Shown: piece after piece, positions 211 through 7,771 of the stretch
Layout: each line of letters starts with the position of its first letter
How positions within the stretch are numbered: position 1 is the stretch's first letter
From: JAFGIT01 sp016929465 [NCBI: Candidatus Coatesbacteria bacterium]
Lineage (GTDB): Bacteria > B130-G9
Length of the DNA: 7,826 nt
Direction of reading: 5' to 3'
Assembly: GCA_016929465.1 (NCBI GenBank)
Contig: JAFGIT010000343.1
Location: 1 to 7,826, forward strand
Made by a program: the position numbers and the translations under genes
Notes under the pieces: generated by a model
What the model saw: only the letters and a program-made list of their open reading frames with translations
Database searches by the model: none
What the model was told of the DNA's origin: nothing

Positions 211-1034
211 GGACTGACTTAAAGAAGAACGTTCTAGAGCAACTATACGAGAAATACAATAGGCGGGAGTACGTTCATCCCGACCCCATTGAATTTCTAT
301 ACTACTTCGACACCGTCGGAGACCGCGAGATCGTTGGTTTGATAGCCTCGTCGCTCGCCTACGGAAGAGTTGTGCAGATTCTGAGGAGCATCAAGATGGT
401 TCTCGACAAGATCGGGCCGTCGCCCCGCGAGTTCCTCCTGAATGTCTCCGAAGAAGAACTCCGTCGGAGGCTATTGCGATTCAAGCATAGGTTCACGACC
501 GGCGAGGAAATGGTTGAAATGCTCCTGAGTGCCAAGAGCTTGATCGAGCGGCATGGTTCACTGCACGAGTGCTTCACAAGCGGTCTGAATGACAAGGAGA
601 CAACGGTATTGCAGGCCCTTGAGAGGTTTTCTGACAAGTTGATCTCGCGGAATGGCGATAGAGAAGGTGCCAAGAACAGCTTGATCCCTTCCCCTGGCCT
701 CGGGAGCGCCTGTAAGCGAATCAACCTCTTCCTGAGATGGATGGTGCGCGAGGACGAGGTCGATCCAGGAGGATGGGACGGTGTACCGAAATCGAAGCTG
801 ATGATCCCTCTGGATACACACATGCATCGAATCGGCCTGGCTCTGGGACTCACCGGCAAAAAATGCGCCGACGGTCGCTGCGCCGCCGAGATAACGGAGG
901 CATTCCGCAAAATCGAACCAGATGATCCGGCGCGATATGACTTTGCTCTAACCAGGCTTGGGATAAGGCCAGATTGTGATATGGCTGCATTCTTGAATGA
1001 ATTGGCGGGCTCCAAGGAGTTAGGTGATGATTGA
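207..1034 (+). CDS. TIGR02757/DUF2400 family protein (HhH-GPD glycosylase-like)
   Basis: A 275-residue protein matching the TIGR02757 (DUF2400) family by recalled motifs: an N-terminal DPIEFxYxF segment near residue 26, the helix [17 protein letters not shown] (42-58), FKHRFT (92-97), an [16 protein letters not shown] block (200-215) and [15 protein letters not shown] (239-253). The LDTH motif (D203) resembles the VDTH motif carrying the catalytic aspartate of HhH-GPD DNA glycosylases such as endonuclease III, so a DNA-repair or nucleic-acid role is conceivable. The family is not biochemically characterised as far as I know. There is no obvious four-cysteine Fe-S loop at the C-terminus. The start overlaps the rubredoxin stop (ATGA) with only a weak upstream GGAT, consistent with coupling. 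The stop overlaps the permease start by 8 bp. Why such a protein sits in an ars-like operon is unclear. Confidence 0.85.
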
Positions 1035-2295
1035 TGCTCTTCTCGGCATCGTGGCCGAATTCTGGGATGTGTTGGGAGCGATGTCCCCTTATCTGCTATT
1101 CGGCTTTCTTGTGTCAGGGATTCTCTCGGTGTATATTTCGCCAGAGGTGGTCCGCAGACACTTAGGGGGCAAGGGACTAGCCCCGGTTCTGAAAGCGTCC
1201 CTGTTCGGTGTTCCCTTGCCGCTTTGCTCATGCGGCGTGATTCCAGTCTCAGCATCGCTTCGAAGACAGGGTGCAAGCAAGGGGGCGACGACAGCATTCC
1301 TGCTTTCCACTCCGCAGACGGGTGTGGACTCGATATTCGTGACCCTGAGTCTTCTTGGCCCCGTGTTTGCAATATTCAGGCCATTAGCGGCGCTTCTTAC
1401 CGGATTTATAGGTGGCTCGATAGTCTCAATTGGTGATAGGGAAGAAGGAGATTCGTGCGAGGGTGAGAGCTGTACATGTGCGACTGGGGCCTGCATGATC
1501 CATCAGAAGAACCGCAAGTTCTCCCATATCTTCAAATACGGCTTTGTCACGCTGGCAGGGGATATTGCCAAGCCGCTCTTCTTTGGGCTTCTCGCTGCAG
1601 CGTTAATCTCAGCTCTTGTGCCCGAGAACTTCTTCGCAGGTTCAATCGGTCAGGGCTTCTGGGCCAAGGTCCTGCTGATGGCGCTTGGGATACCTGTCTA
1701 TGTCTGCGCTACAGCTTCCGTTCCGCTAGCTGCGGCGTTAATCGCGATCGGTGTATCTCCGGGGGCGGCGTTCGTCTTCCTGATGACCGGACCTGCAACG
1801 AATATCGCCACGATTGCCACCGTGTGGAAGGTGATGGGCAGAAGGGTGGCTATCACCTACCTGGCGACGACAGCGGGATGTGCCCTCTTATTCGGCTCGC
1901 TTCTGGATCTCATCTATGTGAGGGCTGATATGGCGGCGGAGCCCTATATGCCCTGGATGATGCCCCCATTTCTCAAGGTGATCAGCGCAATTGTTCTCCT
2001 TGCCGTGCTTGGATGGTCTAGCTACGTTCACAACCATCCACACCACGAGCCAATACTAAATGAAAGGAAAGAGAAGATGCTCACTCTAAATATAACTGGA
2101 ATGACATGCAGTCACTGCGTAGCGGCAGTCAAAAAGGTTCTCAAAGATGGAAAGGGCGTGAAGGCCGTCGATGTCGATCTGAAGAACGGCAAGGCAATCG
2201 TTGATGGTGAAAACCTCGATCACGATGCGCTATGTAAATCGGTCGATGCACTCGGTTATGGTTGCTCGCTGCACGCCGACAAAGAAGACAAATAA
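1027..2295 (+). CDS. SO_0444-type metal/metalloid permease with C-terminal HMA domain
   Basis: A 422-residue polytopic inner-membrane permease. The first half has GVPLPLCSCGVIP (61-73, C67/C69) and STPQTGVDS (94-102); the second half repeats this architecture with GIPVYVCATASVPLA (221-235) and MTGPATN (253-259). This is the two-repeat layout of the DUF318/ArsP permease superfamily, closest in my recollection to the SO_0444 Cu/Zn efflux group. A cysteine cluster (C144, C149, C151, C156) lies in the central loop. After a histidine-rich linker (HNHPHH, 335-340) comes an HMA domain with GMTCSHC (358-364), which binds soft metals such as Cu(I) or Zn(II). ATG 1027 is preferred because AAGGAG at 1014-1019 is 7 bases upstream; GTG at 1024 is only 4 bases away. 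Likely role: efflux of a thiophilic metal, or of arsenite/organoarsenical given the arsC downstream. The substrate cannot be settled from sequence. Confidence 0.9.
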   Translation: MIDALLGIVAEFWDVLGAMSPYLLFGFLVSGILSVYISPEVVRRHLGGKGLAPVLKASLFGVPLPLCSCGVIPVSASLRRQGASKGATTAFLLSTPQTGVDSIFVTLSLLGPVFAIFRPLAALLTGFIGGSIVSIGDREEGDSCEGESCTCATGACMIHQKNRKFSHIFKYGFVTLAGDIAKPLFFGLLAAALISALVPENFFAGSIGQGFWAKVLLMALGIPVYVCATASVPLAAALIAIGVSPGAAFVFLMTGPATNIATIATVWKVMGRRVAITYLATTAGCALLFGSLLDLIYVRADMAAEPYMPWMMPPFLKVISAIVLLAVLGWSSYVHNHPHHEPILNERKEKMLTLNITGMTCSHCVAAVKKVLKDGKGVKAVDVDLKNGKAIVDGENLDHDALCKSVDALGYGCSLHADKEDK

Positions 2296-2312
2296 TCAGG
2301 ATTTTCACCGCA

Positions 2313-3026
2313 ATGGCAAGAATCTCTAATACTGCGCACAAGGAAGTCCTCGCGAGACGTTCCAGGACCAGGCGGATCCTCCAATCCTCGCTCTGGATAA
2401 TCGTAGTCGTAGTCATTGGCCTTGGGTGGCGCTATCCCCTTTTGGGATATGCAGTGCCGATCGTTATGCTCATCGGAGTGGTCGGCGGCTTCATTCGGGG
2501 CAGGTACGTTTGCGGCTGGCTTTGTCCCAGGGGAGCCTTCTTCGACAGGGTGATGACCCATATCAGCCCGAAGAAGAAAATCCCCGAGTGGCTCAGGAAG
2601 CCCGTCTTCAGGTGGATCGTTTTCTGCCTGCTCATGGGCTTCATGGTGTGGCAAATTAGCATCAATCCTGGCAGTTTCCGTCACTGGGGAACGGTCTTCT
2701 TCAGAATGTGCGTCATAACAACCGGTATCGGAGTGATCCTCGCCATTTTTATTCACCCGCGGACCTGGTGCGCGTTTTGCCCAATCGGGACCCTTCAGAG
2801 CTCAGTTGGGGGACACAAGCACAAGCTCCAGATCGAGGATGGCTGTACCAACTGCAGAGTGTGTGAGAAGGCGTGCCCGAAGAACCTCAAAATCCCAAGC
2901 AACATGAAGGACGGCGAGTTTCAGTCGAAGGACTGCCTGAAGTGCCCAGAATGCCAGCTCGCATGTCCGTTGGGGCTACTGAAATTACCGGACCAGAAAA
3001 GCGAGGCAAATGCACCCCAACGCTAA
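2313..3026 (+). CDS. NapH-like membrane 4Fe-4S ferredoxin-type protein
   Basis: A 237-residue membrane protein with about four hydrophobic segments (24-39, 43-61, 99-115, 131-149). Two membrane-proximal cysteine pairs, CGWLCP (C67, C71) and CAFCP (C153, C156), are the hallmark of NapH/NosR/CcoG-type polyferredoxins. The cytoplasmic tail carries two ferredoxin motifs, C178-x2-C181-x2-C184-x3-C188-P and C208-x2-C211-x2-C214-x3-C218-P, each expected to bind one [4Fe-4S] cluster. The likely role is electron transfer between quinol or ferredoxin and a partner. ATG 2313 is chosen because it lies 17 bp after the permease stop and begins a plausible N-terminus, although only a weak AGG at 2298-2300 precedes it. 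An in-frame TTG at 2262 would overlap the HMA-coding sequence and add 17 basic residues. The 3' end overlaps arsC by 17 bp. Proteins of this type often sit beside SO_0444-like permeases in my recollection; the coupling is inferred. Confidence 0.88.
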   Translation: MARISNTAHKEVLARRSRTRRILQSSLWIIVVVVIGLGWRYPLLGYAVPIVMLIGVVGGFIRGRYVCGWLCPRGAFFDRVMTHISPKKKIPEWLRKPVFRWIVFCLLMGFMVWQISINPGSFRHWGTVFFRMCVITTGIGVILAIFIHPRTWCAFCPIGTLQSSVGGHKHKLQIEDGCTNCRVCEKACPKNLKIPSNMKDGEFQSKDCLKCPECQLACPLGLLKLPDQKSEANAPQR

Positions 3027-3441
3027 TCTGCTGTTTCTCTGCGGAAGCAACTCCTGCCGCTCACAGATGGCCGAGGGGATCCTCAGGAGCCTTGCGGGAG
3101 ACAGGTTCGACGTAAAAAGCGCCGGCGCGTCAGCCTCCTACGTGCACCCGATGGCAATAAGGGTAATGGACGAGATTGGGATTGATATCTCGAACCAGCG
3201 CAGCAAGTCGCTCGATGAGTTCATCGGTCAGAGATTCGATTACGTCATAACAGTCTGTGCGAATGACAGGAAGAGCATCTGCCCCTTCTTCCCCGGCAAA
3301 ATCGGTCAGCGGATCAGTTGGGGCTTTGAGGATCCTGCGGATGCCGATGGTGACGAGGACGAGCGGCTCGCTGTCTTTCGGAGAGTAAGAGACGGACTCA
3401 TACAGAATATCAAGCAGTTTTTACAAACACATCCCAATTAA
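3010..3441 (+). CDS. arsC: Arsenate reductase, thioredoxin-coupled (LMW-PTP fold)
   Basis: A 143-residue cytoplasmic enzyme reducing arsenate to arsenite. The N-terminus has the LMW-phosphatase P-loop CX5R as C11-GSNSC-R17-S followed by QMAEG, which is diagnostic for ArsC rather than for tyrosine phosphatases. The redox relay cysteines of the thioredoxin-dependent class are present as C83 (TVCAND) and C91 (ICPFFPG), eight residues apart instead of the usual seven. The WGFEDP block (104-109) holds the general acid D108, followed by the EERL-xxFRRVRD helix found in many bacterial ArsC. GAGG at 3003-3006 is only 3 bases from the ATG, and the start overlaps the upstream gene by 17 bp, so translational coupling is likely. 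As last gene of the operon it implies that the permease may remove its product arsenite. An ordinary LMW protein phosphatase is much less likely given C83/C91. Confidence 0.93.
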   Translation: MHPNANLLFLCGSNSCRSQMAEGILRSLAGDRFDVKSAGASASYVHPMAIRVMDEIGIDISNQRSKSLDEFIGQRFDYVITVCANDRKSICPFFPGKIGQRISWGFEDPADADGDEDERLAVFRRVRDGLIQNIKQFLQTHPN

Positions 3442-3995: not shown

Positions 3996-4115
3996 ATGAG
4001 GGCAAGGGAAGCCTATGAGTCACCGCGCGTGATCACGGTTAATTCCGCTGCGATCATGAACGTCATTGGTCCCAGTGTGTCATGCACTGGGTTCGGTGGC
4101 TCTGCTAGCTGCTAA
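3996..4115 (+). CDS. RiPP-like 39-residue precursor peptide, copy 1
   Basis: A 39-residue ORF with an excellent ribosome binding site (AGGAGG, 3985-3990, 5 bases before ATG) and a TAA stop. Residues 1-23 form a charged, leader-like part containing YESPRV (7-12); residues 24-39 are IGPSVSCTGFGGSASC, identical to copies 2 and 3. It is the most divergent copy: about 10 of the first 23 residues match copy 2, and 11 of 16 core codons differ from copy 2 without any amino-acid change. This points to a real, selected peptide. The core is rich in Ser, Gly and Cys (C30, C39) and ends in Cys, like substrates of peptide-modifying enzymes (thioether or disulfide formation). It lacks Asp, Glu and Lys, which argues against a lasso peptide. 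It has no signal peptide. No modification, protease or export gene is in the window, so the class is unknown. Confidence 0.8.
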   Translation: MRAREAYESPRVITVNSAAIMNVIGPSVSCTGFGGSASC

Positions 4116-4209
4116 GTGAATAGAATTTGAGATCGAGGATTGTCGAAGAGCGTACCTACTTACGGCAGGAACTGCAGAGGGACCAGCGTGGGGCAAATGG
4201 TCGGACAAT

Positions 4210-4233
4210 AGCCCTACGTTAGGTCAGGGCTTT
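4210..4233 (+). terminator. Weak terminator-like hairpin after peptide 1
   Basis: AGCCCT (4210-4215) and AGGGCT (4226-4231) form a perfect 6-bp stem with a 10-base loop, followed by only TTT. It lies 95 bases past the peptide 1 stop. The short T-run makes termination uncertain. Confidence 0.25.
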
Positions 4234-4304
4234 CGAGCTACCGTGCATGCTCCTGTCTGGGCGGAGCCCTTCGCGGATCCGGAAAAGTCGCGGCTTCGTT
4301 CGTA

Positions 4305-4325
4305 CGCGAGCTCATTTCGCTCGCG
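4305..4325. repeat. GC-rich hairpin-forming inverted repeat
   Basis: CGCGAGC and GCTCGCG form a perfect 7-bp stem around a 7-base loop (TCATTTC). There is no following T-run. Function unknown; possibly an RNA structural element or a remnant of a lost mobile or coding element. Confidence 0.3.
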
Positions 4326-4506
4326 CTGAGTTGATGAGCGGCGATCTGTTCCTAATCGTCGATCCCAAGAGACTCGCTGATGGCTGAGGATGGAGATTGT
4401 TGAGGGAGTTTGATTGGACCACATGGGAGGTCTAATGGCCCATATAGAGAGATTGGACAGGGAGGAACTTGCTGTATGACCGGCAGGGGATTAATTGGCC
4501 TTGTGT

Positions 4507-4536
4507 TTGTCAGACTGCTAACAATATTTTTATAAC
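4507..4536 (+). promoter_or_regulatory. Sigma70-like promoter upstream of peptide 2
   Basis: TTGTCA (4507-4512, five of six -35 bases) is followed after 18 bases by TATAAC (4531-4536, five of six -10 bases). A perfect TATAAT lies just downstream at 4548-4553 but has no good -35. The region is strikingly AT-rich. It would drive the remnant at 4595-4774 and peptide 2 at 4803, and possibly the genes beyond. Confidence 0.45.
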
Positions 4537-4552
4537 CACATCATAGTTATAA
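4530..4552. promoter_or_regulatory. Operator-like inverted repeat TTATAAC-N9-GTTATAA
   Basis: TTATAAC (4530-4536) and GTTATAA (4546-4552) form a perfect 7-bp inverted repeat with a 9-base spacer. It spans from the proposed -10 element to about the transcription start, the classic position for a repressor site. Centre-to-centre distance is 16 bases, somewhat over one helical turn. No regulator gene is in the window. Confidence 0.4.
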
Positions 4553-4594
4553 TACGAATACTACGTTAATAGAGATGAAGAAAATAATATATCA

Positions 4595-4774
4595 ATCACC
4601 TGGGAGACGGGGACCGAGATCGACAACGCCGGTTTCGACCTTTACAGGCCCGAGGCCGGCGACCGCACGACACCAACGGGGATCGATGACCGCCTTATCC
4701 CAGCAAAGGGAAGCCCGGCCGGGGGAGCCAGCCGCACATTCGTCGATGCTGACGTCCGGCCGGGAATTACCTAC
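4595..4774 (+). pseudogene. Remnant of a beta-helix protein C-terminal domain gene
   Basis: These 180 bases align with 7260-7436 inside the large beta-helix gene, with about 20 mismatches in 177 aligned bases (hand count) and one extra codon. Two blocks of 45 and 36 bases are identical. In its own frame it encodes ITWETGTEIDNAGFDLYR, then a DRLIPAKGSPAGGAS block and FVDADVRPGITY, i.e. most of the FnIII-like domain seen at residues 638-698 of the intact protein. It has no in-frame start, no signal peptide and no beta-helix body. Downstream, about 187 bases present in the intact copy are missing before the peptide ribosome binding site; upstream, homology fades near 4571-4595. A gene caller could read a 115-residue ORF from 4575 through this region, but that is out of frame with the domain and only its last 39 codons are meaningful. 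Confidence 0.85.
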
Positions 4775-4802
4775 ACCCAATCCGGAGAAGAGGAGAGAAG
4801 AG

Positions 4803-4922
4803 ATGAGAAAGACGGAGATGTATGAGAAGCCGCAGGTGCAAACGATCGGCAGCGGAGGAATTATTGCGATCATCGGCCCTAGCGTGTCGTGCACCGGCTT
4901 CGGCGGCTCGGCGAGCTGTTGA
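4803..4922 (+). CDS. RiPP-like 39-residue precursor peptide, copy 2
   Basis: A 39-residue ORF starting at ATG 4803, with AGGAG at 4791-4795 seven bases upstream, ending in TGA. The N-terminal part contains MRKTEMYEKPQVQTI (1-15) and SGG (17-19); residues 24-39 are the invariant IGPSVSCTGFGGSASC. The YEKPxV motif resembles the YxxP leader signatures recognised by RRE (RiPP recognition element) proteins in lasso and related systems. The SGG before the hydrophobic stretch IIAII could be a double-glycine-type cleavage site, giving a 20-residue product, but copy 1 has SAA there. Copy 2 differs from copy 3 at three leader residues (6, 16, 22) and at six synonymous core positions. It follows a decayed beta-helix fragment and so may depend on the promoter at 4507-4536. 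The longer frame opening at 4575 is not the real gene, because its extra residues are an off-frame reading of the remnant. Confidence 0.82.
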   Translation: MRKTEMYEKPQVQTIGSGGIIAIIGPSVSCTGFGGSASC

Positions 4923-4978
4923 TCGGGCTTTGAATTCGGAAAGAGAGACAAGGCTTTGATTAGGCGAAGAACACCAAT

Positions 4979-4999
4979 GCCAGGCCGAAGGCCACTGGC
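4979..4999 (+). other. Possible hairpin between peptide 2 and the signal-peptide gene
   Basis: GCCAG (4979-4983) pairs with CTGGC (4995-4999) and GCC (4984-4986) with GGC (4990-4992) around a GAA loop, with a 2-base bulge. There is no T-run, so it is not a clear terminator; it might attenuate or protect the transcript. Weak evidence. Confidence 0.2.
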
Positions 5000-5029
5000 T
5001 ATGGTCTGATTACAGAGAGAAGAGAAGGG

Positions 5030-5344
5030 ATGATGGTACGGCAATTGATTTTCGCAATTGTTTTCGTCGCGATTCTCTTGGCTTTGACGCTGGTATCCGC
5101 CTATGCCGACGATGGCCGGCGGATTGACGGTCCACTGGGCGGAGACAGCCGATGCGAGGAAGCGGGAATGAGCACGGTTCATCACCACTGGATGCACATC
5201 TGGACGACGAGTAATGGCGGGAGAGGTGACGGAAGAGCCGTCCATTCTGGCTATTACTGGAACCCGGTCCGCGACGGGAACGGCCACGCCTTTGTCCAGT
5301 CCAATGCATCCAAGAGAGAACATATATCTGAAAGAAAGCGATAG
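5030..5344 (+). CDS. Small predicted secreted protein, unknown function
   Basis: A 104-residue ORF that I do not recognise. It begins with a classical signal peptide: a short basic start (MMVRQ), a hydrophobic core at about 6-22 and a likely cleavage after AYA (24-26), giving a mature protein of about 78 residues beginning DDGRR. The mature part is Gly/Arg/His-rich, with HHHW (51-54), HIWTT and GYYWNPVRDGNGH (74-86), one cysteine (C42) and a basic tail. A purine-rich GAAGGG (5024-5029) lies directly before ATG 5030 and suits the adjacent ATG 5033 slightly better. The stop is 4 bp from the beta-helix start, so co-transcription is likely. It could be a genuine exported partner of the beta-helix protein, or the 5' end of a decayed secreted gene; the low-complexity C-terminus leaves this open. 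Confidence 0.5.
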   Translation: MMVRQLIFAIVFVAILLALTLVSAYADDGRRIDGPLGGDSRCEEAGMSTVHHHWMHIWTTSNGGRGDGRAVHSGYYWNPVRDGNGHAFVQSNASKREHISERKR

Positions 5345-5348
5345 TGAA

Positions 5349-7619
5349 ATGAACAACAGAAGAATGATCTTACCGATTATTGTCTGCGCGCTAGCGTCGA
5401 TTATATTTCATGGCGTGTCCTCGGCACAGCAAGAGTATTGGGTGGATGCGGACGACGGCCATGATGGCTTGATGCACACTGGTTCGGACACTGATCCCTG
5501 GCTCACGATCACCCATGCGTTGGGGCGCACGGGTGGATCGTCCGGGAATCCTCTGATCATCCACGTGAGGGCCGCCTCCAATGCCTATGACACGACTCTG
5601 GGCGAGAGTTTCCCGCTCCAGCCTGGCAGTTACACAACGCTTCTCGGAGAAGGGGCCTCAGGCACGATTATCGACGCTGATACATCGGAAGCGTCGGCGA
5701 TAAGGATCGCCTCGCAGCTCAATGTCTCCATTGAGGGGCTCACAGTCAGAAACGGTGAGCCAATCGGGATGGGCGTCGGGGCGGGACTGATGTGCTCGTC
5801 TAGCAGCTACATCACGATAAAGGACTGCGTCGTGACACTCAATGACGGTAATAAGGGCGGCGGCATCTACTTCGGGGATTGCGATTATGCGACTGTCGAG
5901 TCCTGCGACATCACTGACAACAACACGGGTGGATTTGGCGCCGGAATCTCATGCTCCGGCAGTTCGCCTGTCATTAGATCATGCACGATTGCGGGCAATG
6001 CCGTCTCGGCGGGATTCTCAGGCCTCGGAGGAGGGATCTGGCTTGAGTCGGATTCATATCCGATTATCGATGAGTGCGTGATTAATGGCAACAAGGCGAG
6101 GGAAGGCGCCGGGATCGGGTCTTCTGAATGCGCCTCTGGCGGATCATCGATTGAGATCATCGATTCGGACATCATCGGGAATATCGCATACAAGAGCGGC
6201 GGGGCCGGCGCAAGACTAGAGGACTCCAATGTCCGCTTCATCGGAGGGTCAATCAAGGACAACGTCGATGCTAATTACGGCGCCGGAGCATACTTGGAGG
6301 CGATCAATCACGACTGCTCTGTCACGTTTGAGGGAGTCGTCATTAGCGGGAATAAGACACATGAATACGACTCCTATTATGGAGGAGGCATCTATGCCAG
6401 CGGGGGACGTCTGAGTGTCTCACTCGCCGATTGTGAGATTGAGAATAACACCGCATTGCACAGCGGGGGGGGGATATGCGCCGAATATGCGAAGCTGAAT
6501 ATCGAATCGAGCGTGTTTTCCATAAATAAATCGAATGAGAGTGGAGCTGGCATTTATTATAATTCCAATTACACATATCGTATCGAGCCGGATGACGCCA
6601 AATTCTCGCATTGCGTATTCTCGGGAAATGAGTGTTCGGGCAATTACGCCTATCCCGGAGGCGCTGCATTATACCTTTATCATTACATCTCGCCCAGCAT
6701 CTTCAACTGCCTAATTGTTGGGAACAAACTTGGAAATTCGGCTGAAGGTGGAGGCGTCTATCTGTGGGATCAGTCCTCGCCCGAACTTGTCAACTGCACC
6801 ATCGCCGACAATGAGAGTGATGGCTTATATGCGGATAGTAGTAGCTGTAAGCCAACCCTGACAAACTGCATCCTATGCAACAACGACGACGACATCGAAA
6901 ACATCGCCTGCTCATATATCAGCCATTGTGACATCGGGGACGGCGACTGCGAAGGCAGCGACGGCAACATCCAGGCTGATCCGCTCTTCGTCCCACGCGA
7001 TCCCGACGATATAGATGTCTATACCGGTTATTATTTGGCTCAAGTGGATACTCAGGCCGAAGACAGCTTGTGTCTTAACGCCGGAGATGATCAATCCACC
7101 GCGTACGACCTCGACGGCTACACTACTTGCACTGACGGTCGCTATGACGAGGGCATCGTCGATATGGGATACCACTACCCCGAAGGCTACGGCGGCGATG
7201 ATGACACCTACATCGAGCTCATTTCGTTCGATGCGAAGGCGAGAGATGGAATTATTCAAATCACCTGGGAAACGGGCACCGAGATCGACTGCGCTGGTTT
7301 CGACCTCTTGAAGGCCGAAGCCGACCGCACGACACCGAAGAAGATCAACGACCGCCTTATCCCAGCAAAGGGAAGCCCGGCCGGGGGAGCCAGCTACAGA
7401 TTCGTCGATGCTGACGTCCGGCCGGGAATTACCTACTCCTACTATCTAATCGACATCGAAACGGCCGGCAGGGAGACCCGGCACGGTCCGGTCGAGGCCG
7501 TCGTCATCGACAAGAACATGCTCATTGACGATGGCGGTTCACGAAGGCCGGCTGTCATTGATGATCTTTTTAGATCTCATATTTCATCAATCTTGAGCCA
7601 TATATACCTATATTTATAG
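5349..7619 (+). CDS. Secreted parallel beta-helix protein with FnIII-like C-terminal domain
   Basis: A 756-residue exported protein. Signal peptide: MNNRRMILP, a hydrophobic core to about residue 20, likely cleavage after SSA (24-26). The mature start (EYWVDADDGHDG...DPWLTITHAL) is the usual entry to right-handed beta-helix proteins of the DUF1565/PbH1 type. Residues ~105-530 hold many helix coils with recurring GGGI/GAGI and C-x-I-x-x-N motifs (DCVVTLN, SCTIAGN, ECVINGN, NCTIADN), forming Cys and Asn ladders. Residues ~574-610 (LCLNAGD, DLDG, GIVDMGYHY) resemble the 'choice-of-anchor Q' motif. Residues ~621-720 form an FnIII-like domain (ITWETGTEIDCAGF, FVDADVRPGITYSYYL, HGPVEAV). ATG 5349 is chosen because the frame's upstream extension to 5214 would bury the signal peptide. 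The tail after 720 is AT-rich and unlike the rest. Likely location is the cell surface or outside; substrate or adhesion role unknown. It precedes peptide 3 by 32 bp. Confidence 0.88.
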   Translation: MNNRRMILPIIVCALASIIFHGVSSAQQEYWVDADDGHDGLMHTGSDTDPWLTITHALGRTGGSSGNPLIIHVRAASNAYDTTLGESFPLQPGSYTTLLGEGASGTIIDADTSEASAIRIASQLNVSIEGLTVRNGEPIGMGVGAGLMCSSSSYITIKDCVVTLNDGNKGGGIYFGDCDYATVESCDITDNNTGGFGAGISCSGSSPVIRSCTIAGNAVSAGFSGLGGGIWLESDSYPIIDECVINGNKAREGAGIGSSECASGGSSIEIIDSDIIGNIAYKSGGAGARLEDSNVRFIGGSIKDNVDANYGAGAYLEAINHDCSVTFEGVVISGNKTHEYDSYYGGGIYASGGRLSVSLADCEIENNTALHSGGGICAEYAKLNIESSVFSINKSNESGAGIYYNSNYTYRIEPDDAKFSHCVFSGNECSGNYAYPGGAALYLYHYISPSIFNCLIVGNKLGNSAEGGGVYLWDQSSPELVNCTIADNESDGLYADSSSCKPTLTNCILCNNDDDIENIACSYISHCDIGDGDCEGSDGNIQADPLFVPRDPDDIDVYTGYYLAQVDTQAEDSLCLNAGDDQSTAYDLDGYTTCTDGRYDEGIVDMGYHYPEGYGGDDDTYIELISFDAKARDGIIQITWETGTEIDCAGFDLLKAEADRTTPKKINDRLIPAKGSPAGGASYRFVDADVRPGITYSYYLIDIETAGRETRHGPVEAVVIDKNMLIDDGGSRRPAVIDDLFRSHISSILSHIYLYL
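6465..6473 (+). repeat. Run of nine G inside the beta-helix gene
   Basis: An uninterrupted G9 tract encodes the GGG of HSGGGIC (residues 371-377 of the beta-helix protein). Alternative glycine codons used elsewhere for the same motif break up such runs. A tract of this length can slip during replication and switch the gene on or off, as known for poly-G tracts in chlamydial pmp genes. In this window the frame is intact. Confidence 0.6.
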
Positions 7620-7771
7620 AGAAACCATATCCAGGAAAGAGGAGAGAAAAGATGAGAAAGACCGAGACCTATGAGAAGCCACAGGTACAAACGATCTGCA
7701 GCGGAGGGATTATCTCGATCATCGGCCCAAGCGTATCGTGCACCGGCTTTGGAGGGTCGGCGAGCTGCTAG
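7260..7771 (+). repeat. Intact copy of the 'beta-helix C-terminus + peptide' module
   Basis: This is the full-length counterpart of 4595-4922. It covers the FnIII-like domain end of the beta-helix gene, its AT-rich 3' tail, the 32-bp spacer with the peptide ribosome binding site, and peptide copy 3. The two modules lie about 2.7 kb apart in direct orientation with the signal-peptide gene and the beta-helix body between them. Confidence 0.85.
7652..7771 (+). CDS. RiPP-like 39-residue precursor peptide, copy 3
   Basis: A 39-residue ORF with GGAG at 7641-7644 seven bases before ATG, 32 bp after the beta-helix stop, ending in TAG. The leader has MRKTETYEKPQVQTI (1-15) and SGG (17-19); residues 24-39 are the invariant IGPSVSCTGFGGSASC. 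It differs from copy 2 at residues 6 (Thr for Met), 16 (Cys for Gly) and 22 (Ser for Ala), so it has a third cysteine, in the leader. The close spacing makes co-transcription with the beta-helix gene likely. All three copies keep the same length and the same C-terminal Cys as last residue. Any maturation genes may begin beyond the right edge of the window. Confidence 0.82.
   Translation: MRKTETYEKPQVQTICSGGIISIIGPSVSCTGFGGSASC

Follow-up and report, generated by a model that had tools for sequence, protein, structure and literature searches.

Near-identical two-cysteine peptides scattered across a Candidatus Coatesbacteria genome are probable RiPP precursors with an unlinked PqqD/radical SAM-SPASM locus

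Three open reading frames (ORFs) of 39 residues lie on a 7,826-base stretch of DNA from JAFGIT01 sp016929465, a Candidatus Coatesbacteria bacterium. This stretch, referred to here as the window, is an entire contig (C73) of a 3.19-Mb assembly in 423 contigs that is 86% complete by a tool's estimate. The three ORFs probably encode precursors of a two-cysteine ribosomally synthesized and post-translationally modified peptide (RiPP) that would be modified in trans by an unlinked PqqD/radical SAM-SPASM locus. A preliminary description of the window had proposed a multi-copy, RiPP-like precursor family, and three lines of genomic evidence now support that proposal. First, the peptides share a YxxP leader. 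Second, PqqD/radical SAM-SPASM loci occur in the genomes that encode them. Third, their core is under purifying selection.

RiPP precursors usually adjoin the genes for their own enzymes. In the present case, as many as 15 near-identical cores are scattered beside genes for secreted proteins. If this link is functional, it would imply a role for a RiPP in making or anchoring the surface proteins of poorly known bacteria. Such families would escape mining tools that depend on linkage or on longer ORFs. The individual parts are of known kinds. Their combination, namely unlinked multi-copy precursors with secreted partners, a PorU-like peptidase next to a PqqD-radical SAM/HprK/SpI set and carriage by a phage, was not found described in the open-access literature, judged by titles and the starts of abstracts.

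A conserved family of short precursors

The three ORFs in the window are as follows.

3996..4115, forward strand: precursor copy 1, 39 amino acids (from translation; profile match E 2e-21), without a C-terminal-domain gene upstream in the window
4803..4922, forward strand: precursor copy 2, 39 amino acids (from translation), 26 bases after a fragment of a C-terminal domain
7652..7771, forward strand: precursor copy 3, 39 amino acids (from translation), 147 bases after the C-terminal domain of a beta-helix protein

The translations bear out the length, the motif Y7-E-x-P-x-V12 and the common C-terminus, IGPSVSCTGFGGSASC, that had been described. The ribosome-binding sites reported earlier are visible as purine-rich stretches 5' of all three starts, and a longer ORF from 4575 would indeed absorb copy 2, which had been expected to be fused to junk by gene calling. 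Between pairs of the three copies, the last 16 codons show 11, 13 and 6 base differences, none of which changes an amino acid, and divergence on this scale (6–13 bases per pair) argues that the shared C-terminus reflects selection rather than very recent copying.

In the window's own genome the family occupies 15 places, spread over seven contigs, and is therefore not a chance occurrence. Three relatives in the same family hold a further 7, 5 and 2 places (14 in total), giving 29 with the window's own genome. A single-sequence search of 98 genomes found the family in these four and in none of the 94 others; it missed the precursor of genome G044 described below, so a search of this kind is blind to distant precursors. 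Homologues are thus present both on other contigs of the same genome and in relatives, contrary to the possibility, raised at the outset, that there might be none outside this locus. The precursors had no NCBIfam or Pfam match.

What is conserved in these peptides? The leader follows the pattern YExPxVxTLxSxxIMSxLG, and the nearly fixed core, GPSLSCTGFGGSxxC, contains two cysteines. The peptides thus have the form expected of a RiPP precursor, a short ribosomal product with a conserved leader and core. Both cysteines are present in 24 of the 27 leader-bearing copies, with the first gone in two and the last in one. These three variants (L016:5622-5735, L018:7483-7617 and L039:1283-1402), in which the first cysteine is replaced by His or Tyr or the last is lost, may be decaying or may give different products. 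At the remaining two of the 29 places (L021:4180-4260 and L040:540-632) a core stands alone with no leader; by their sequence, these are apparently remnants of former copies. Frameshifts and stop codons in the core had been named as signs that would speak against a precursor family; most homologues are intact, with the two leaderless remnants and the three cysteine-loss copies as exceptions.

Selection on the core is purifying. In 26 leader-bearing copies drawn from the four genomes, the proportions of synonymous (pS) and nonsynonymous (pN) differences were 0.65 and 0.09 in the core and 0.70 and 0.35 in the leader; the core pN is lowered because the copies were chosen by a pattern fixing eight positions, including six of the eleven core positions. 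One copy, C209:7675, falls outside this pattern, and the comparison of the three window copies is unaffected by it. The precursor profile was built from 26 of the 29 places, leaving out the leaderless remnants on C354 and on C74 of genome G001 as well as C209:7675, which lacks the Tyr; seven of its matches, at E 0.33–2.2, were disregarded.

A candidate modifying locus in the same genomes

Searched with the PqqD family, every one of the four family genomes gave one tandem arrangement of a free PqqD and a PqqD-fused ORF. The latter encodes a radical SAM/SPASM enzyme (E<1e-250, once per family genome). Its best relatives of solved structure are all radical SAM/SPASM proteins: an anaerobic sulfatase-maturating enzyme, SkfB and 5wgg, which we take to be CteB. 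The radical SAM CxxxCxxC motif and the SPASM cysteine pattern are intact in all seven enzymes considered here, which include three from other families. Maturases of sactipeptides and ranthipeptides carry this SPASM pattern.

Beyond the enzyme, where contigs continue, lie genes for an HprK-like kinase, a C25 (gingipain/PorU-like) peptidase with a propeptide, and a SpI-type peptidase. Five of the seven loci contain a complete kinase gene, and the C25 gene is next in four of these (L057, L058, L060 and L099). In the fifth, L104, a secreted-protein gene follows the kinase, and the contig ends inside it. The contigs run out within the kinase in L109 and in L056, the locus of the window's own genome. 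The kinase model has a template-modelling (TM) score of 0.2–0.4 to PEPCK/HprK folds, which is weak support because its mean predicted local distance difference test (pLDDT) score is 69.5. The C25 peptidase carries a signal peptide, matches PF01364, and has a His and a Cys at the gingipain positions in all four proteins; we presume these residues to be catalytic. The SpI gene is next after C25 in L058, L060 and L099, while the L057 contig ends just beyond C25. Against the archaeal-type SpI model the score was 46.5 bits, with a cut-off of 51.85; Peptidase_S24 passed its cut-off in L058 and L060 and fell short of it in L099, and Ser, His and Asp are aligned in all three proteins.

Enzyme and precursor in other families

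If the unlinked locus acts on these peptides, are the two found together elsewhere? The enzyme profile gave five matches at E<1e-60 among the 98 genomes, the fifth being G044, and it matched two of the four genomes in the phylum of G044. At E<1e-75 it matched six of 386 genomes, with at most four candidates scored per genome. In all three genomes from other families (G044, G100 and G144), a precursor with the same leader lies inside the homologous enzyme locus, as does a secreted-protein gene. The G044 precursor (56 amino acids) is flanked by PqqD and a secreted protein. In G100, the precursor is beside the enzyme, and the locus includes an FG-GAP secreted protein whose end looks by eye like the same C-terminal domain that is found in the window. 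The G144 precursor is flanked by PqqD and a protein with a type IX secretion system (T9SS) type A sorting tail, which passes Por_Secre_tail with 35.7 bits (cut-off 23). The three leaders share, in this order, YxxPxVITY, D(D/E), LG and xAC, comparable to YEAPKVITLDSxxIMSALGPSLSC in the window's family. Comparison of G044 with the family by hhalign gave 92% for the precursor (E 5e-7), 98.5% for the C-terminal domain and 97% for the kinase.

A joint precursor profile at E<1e-6, with at most 17 candidates scored per genome, matched six of 386 genomes, the same six as the enzyme; the two 386-genome sets were drawn around different centres and may not be identical. Weak precursor matches in G163 and G158 overlap other genes and, upon reading of the loci, were judged to be chance. 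The preliminary description had suggested asking whether homologues cluster with RRE/PqqD-like or radical SAM genes (RRE, RiPP recognition element). They do so in G044, G100 and G144; within the window's family, enzyme and precursor share a genome in four of four cases and are unlinked.

Several observations weigh against a precursor role served by this locus. In the four family genomes the enzyme contigs carry none of the 29 precursor places, and no YxxP leader was seen by eye in the small ORFs ~0.4–1.2 kb upstream of PqqD in those genomes. The C25 and SpI genes of the window's own genome were not seen, its contig ending inside the kinase, and no exporter was seen in the enzyme loci read. The enzyme itself falls below every curated equivalog cut-off and below all NCBIfam cut-offs among its best 25 matches. 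In the G044 enzyme Pfam did not recognise a PqqD domain, and in that of G100 its match stayed below threshold; nor was a free PqqD noticed when the G100 locus was read. The distribution is patchy: the enzyme is absent from G101 and G102, in the phylum of G044, and G280, in the genus of G144, has no precursor match. Lastly, the co-occurrence is only partly independent because the three new precursors were found via enzyme loci and then entered the profile. What remains independent is the lack of a strong precursor match in the rest of the 386 genomes.

Proposed mechanism and likeness to known RiPP systems

How might the product be made? The PqqD domain would bind the YxxP leader, and the radical SAM/SPASM enzyme would modify the core, its target probably being the cysteines or residues close to them. 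The HprK-like kinase may phosphorylate Ser or Thr, and the SpI-like peptidase would cut off the leader. The C25 (PorU-like) peptidase would act beyond the cytoplasm, with either the peptide or a partner protein as substrate. A single set of enzymes would serve all precursor copies in trans.

Among published systems, linear polyphosphorylated peptides (LPP) and lasso peptides come closest. LPP leaders with YxxP are bound by discrete RREs, Ser is polyphosphorylated by an HprK-like kinase, a SpI peptidase cuts the leader with help from the RRE, and the family is described as confined to Bacillota (PMC13381572). The loci described here resemble LPP in the YxxPxV leader, the discrete RRE, the HprK-like kinase and the archaeal-type SpI peptidase of Ser/His/Asp type (PMC13381572), the SpI peptidase being seen in three loci. 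They differ from it in the PqqD-radical SAM-SPASM enzyme, the C25 peptidase and the paired secreted-protein genes. Of the LPP leader as given there, YxxPxVLxHQxIxFETxxS, only YxxPxV is common to both, and the HQxIxFET part is absent. The NTP transferase and MsbA-like transporter of LPP were not noticed in the loci read, some of which are truncated. On these defining features, as far as the loci were read, the system is not assigned to LPP.

Sactipeptide and ranthipeptide maturases (SkfB, 5wgg) are similar in the radical SAM and SPASM pattern, the fusion to an N-terminal RRE and the cysteine-containing core; a difference is that the precursors of the window's family are unlinked. SynChlorMet and HPr-rel-A also combine PqqD-like, HprK-like and radical SAM proteins. 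Both were rejected on their cut-offs (ScmE 126 of 400 bits, ScmD 36 of 100, HprK_rel_A 54.6 of 200 and PqqD_rel_X 27.3 of 35). Lasso peptides share the YxxP leader motif and the PqqD-type RRE, and were rejected: the enzyme loci read contain no Asn-synthetase-like cyclase or B2 peptidase, and the window cores have no Asp or Glu with which to form the macrolactam. Separately, G001 has an additional PqqD inside a lasso-type locus of its own (L059:1132-4815, on contig C54), which encodes an HprK-like protein, a B2 peptidase, PqqD and an Asn-synthetase-like cyclase.

A copy carried by a phage

A further copy, of 36 amino acids, is found on a 67-kb contig from a bin named Deltaproteobacteria and in an IMG/VR record (L066:10010-10120 and L067:5010-5120). 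Ten proteins of the phage contig were scanned; six matched PHROGs families (portal, head protease, major head, terminase, DnaB helicase and, weakly, tape measure), and the contig is therefore that of a tailed phage. The precursor copy had no PHROGs match. Its start overlaps the stop of a 950-amino-acid ORF in the structural region that has no family match, and a search of viral contigs with the neighbouring protein returned the same phage only. The enzyme profile gave a partial, generic match (E 5e-28) in the bin that holds this copy and none in the phage record. That the phage's host has the modifying enzymes is a conjecture.

Pairing with secreted proteins and alternative explanations

Most precursor copies adjoin long ORFs for secreted proteins with one Ig/fn3-like C-terminal domain. 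The corresponding features of the window are as follows.

4571..4777, forward strand: fragment of the Ig/fn3-like C-terminal domain (profile A4, 78.2 bits, positions 9-75 of 98)
5349..7619, forward strand: secreted right-handed beta-helix protein, partner of copy 3 (PF13229, 88.2 bits; ORF list)
7212..7505, forward strand: Ig/fn3-like C-terminal domain of the beta-helix protein (profile A4, 144.4 bits)

The start of the beta-helix protein was set at the signal-peptide-like MNNRRMIL..., the mechanical ORF beginning at 5214. Copy 3 thus lies behind an intact beta-helix gene and copy 2 behind a domain fragment, which shares 81% identity over 63 residues with the intact domain at 7215-7616 and which, judging by this likeness, is a remnant of a secreted-protein gene. 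The domain profile found no match upstream of copy 1 in the window.

The domain profile found 54 places in the four family genomes. A domain ends less than 600 bases upstream of the precursor, on the same strand, in 21 of the 29 precursor places; random placement would give 0.045. The other eight places are the two leaderless remnants, four in which a domain gene is the next large gene 3' of the precursor (C209:13762, C328:121, G001 C57 and G002 C27:47897), C209:5619, where the domain lies 700 bases upstream, and copy 1 of the window. A precursor follows 20 of the 33 domain matches of at least 125 bits, versus one of the 21 weaker ones. Tandem duplication means that the pairs are not independent events. 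The passenger proteins are varied, and include beta-helix proteins, a papain-type protease and a C25-propeptide protein. Among domain proteins with complete ends, 18 of 23 end in Arg or Lys, versus 19 of 97 other called ORFs in the four genomes; this residue may perhaps be part of a sorting signal.

What does this pairing mean for the product? A serious possibility, somewhat short of an even chance, is an ordinary exported RiPP, either an antimicrobial or a signal, that is made in trans and owes its secreted neighbours to duplication of whole pairs. Tandem duplications of domain gene and precursor together are likely at several loci (for example, C209 and G001 C14), the leader and the set of kinase, SpI peptidase and RRE are like those of known RiPP systems, and two-cysteine cores alongside radical SAM/SPASM relatives of peptide maturases fit such a product. 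However, secreted-protein genes are also present in the enzyme loci of the three other-family genomes, up to 15 copies of an almost unvarying core do not resemble the diversified sets of antimicrobials, and the loci read contained no immunity gene that we noticed, any more than an exporter.

A more unusual and rather unlikely explanation is that the finished RiPP cooperates with the secreted protein encoded beside it or is attached to that protein. Here, the C25 peptidase would be a PorU-like sortase joining a near-constant peptide to C-terminal-domain cargo as a surface anchor or cap, and the phage would use the enzymes of its host. The model is T9SS, where PorU is reported to cleave C-terminal domains, with cargo becoming linked to lipopolysaccharide. 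The likeness lies in a C25 peptidase with a propeptide, in secreted proteins with a C-terminal domain, and in the G144 partner with its type A tail; most partner domains, being Ig/fn3-like, are unlike T9SS cargo. Pairing of the precursor with one domain behind differing passengers speaks for this explanation, which is also favored by the secreted-protein gene in all three enzyme loci outside the family, by the position of C25 after the kinase in four of five loci with the gingipain His and Cys kept, and by the excess of terminal Arg and Lys. On the other side, the C25 peptidase scores below the PorU cut-off (267 and 284 bits versus 420), 33 of the 54 domain places lack a precursor in the 600 bases that follow, tandem duplication could hold the pairs together, and the neighbour of the phage copy has no recognisable domain. 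SprA was found in none of the four genomes, though the SprA model matched no control genome either. We lean towards a product that is free or loosely associated; attachment of the peptide to its neighbouring protein is a conjecture.

It is improbable that the peptides are small, unmodified structural or chaperone-like partners of the secreted proteins, as the tight pairing and the lack of precursors on enzyme contigs in the window's family might suggest, given that no signal peptide is visible by eye, the leader matches that of precursors inside radical SAM loci, and enzyme and precursor occur in the same six genomes.

Other genes in the window

Between copy 2 and the beta-helix gene, positions 5030-5344 encode a 104-amino-acid ORF that has no match in Pfam and begins with a stretch resembling a signal peptide. 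Upstream of the precursors, positions 1024-3441 encode an ArsP_1-type permease with a C-terminal heavy-metal-associated domain, followed by a 4Fe-4S protein and a protein of the low-molecular-weight phosphatase family; judged by these family assignments, the group looks like a metal or arsenic handling cluster.

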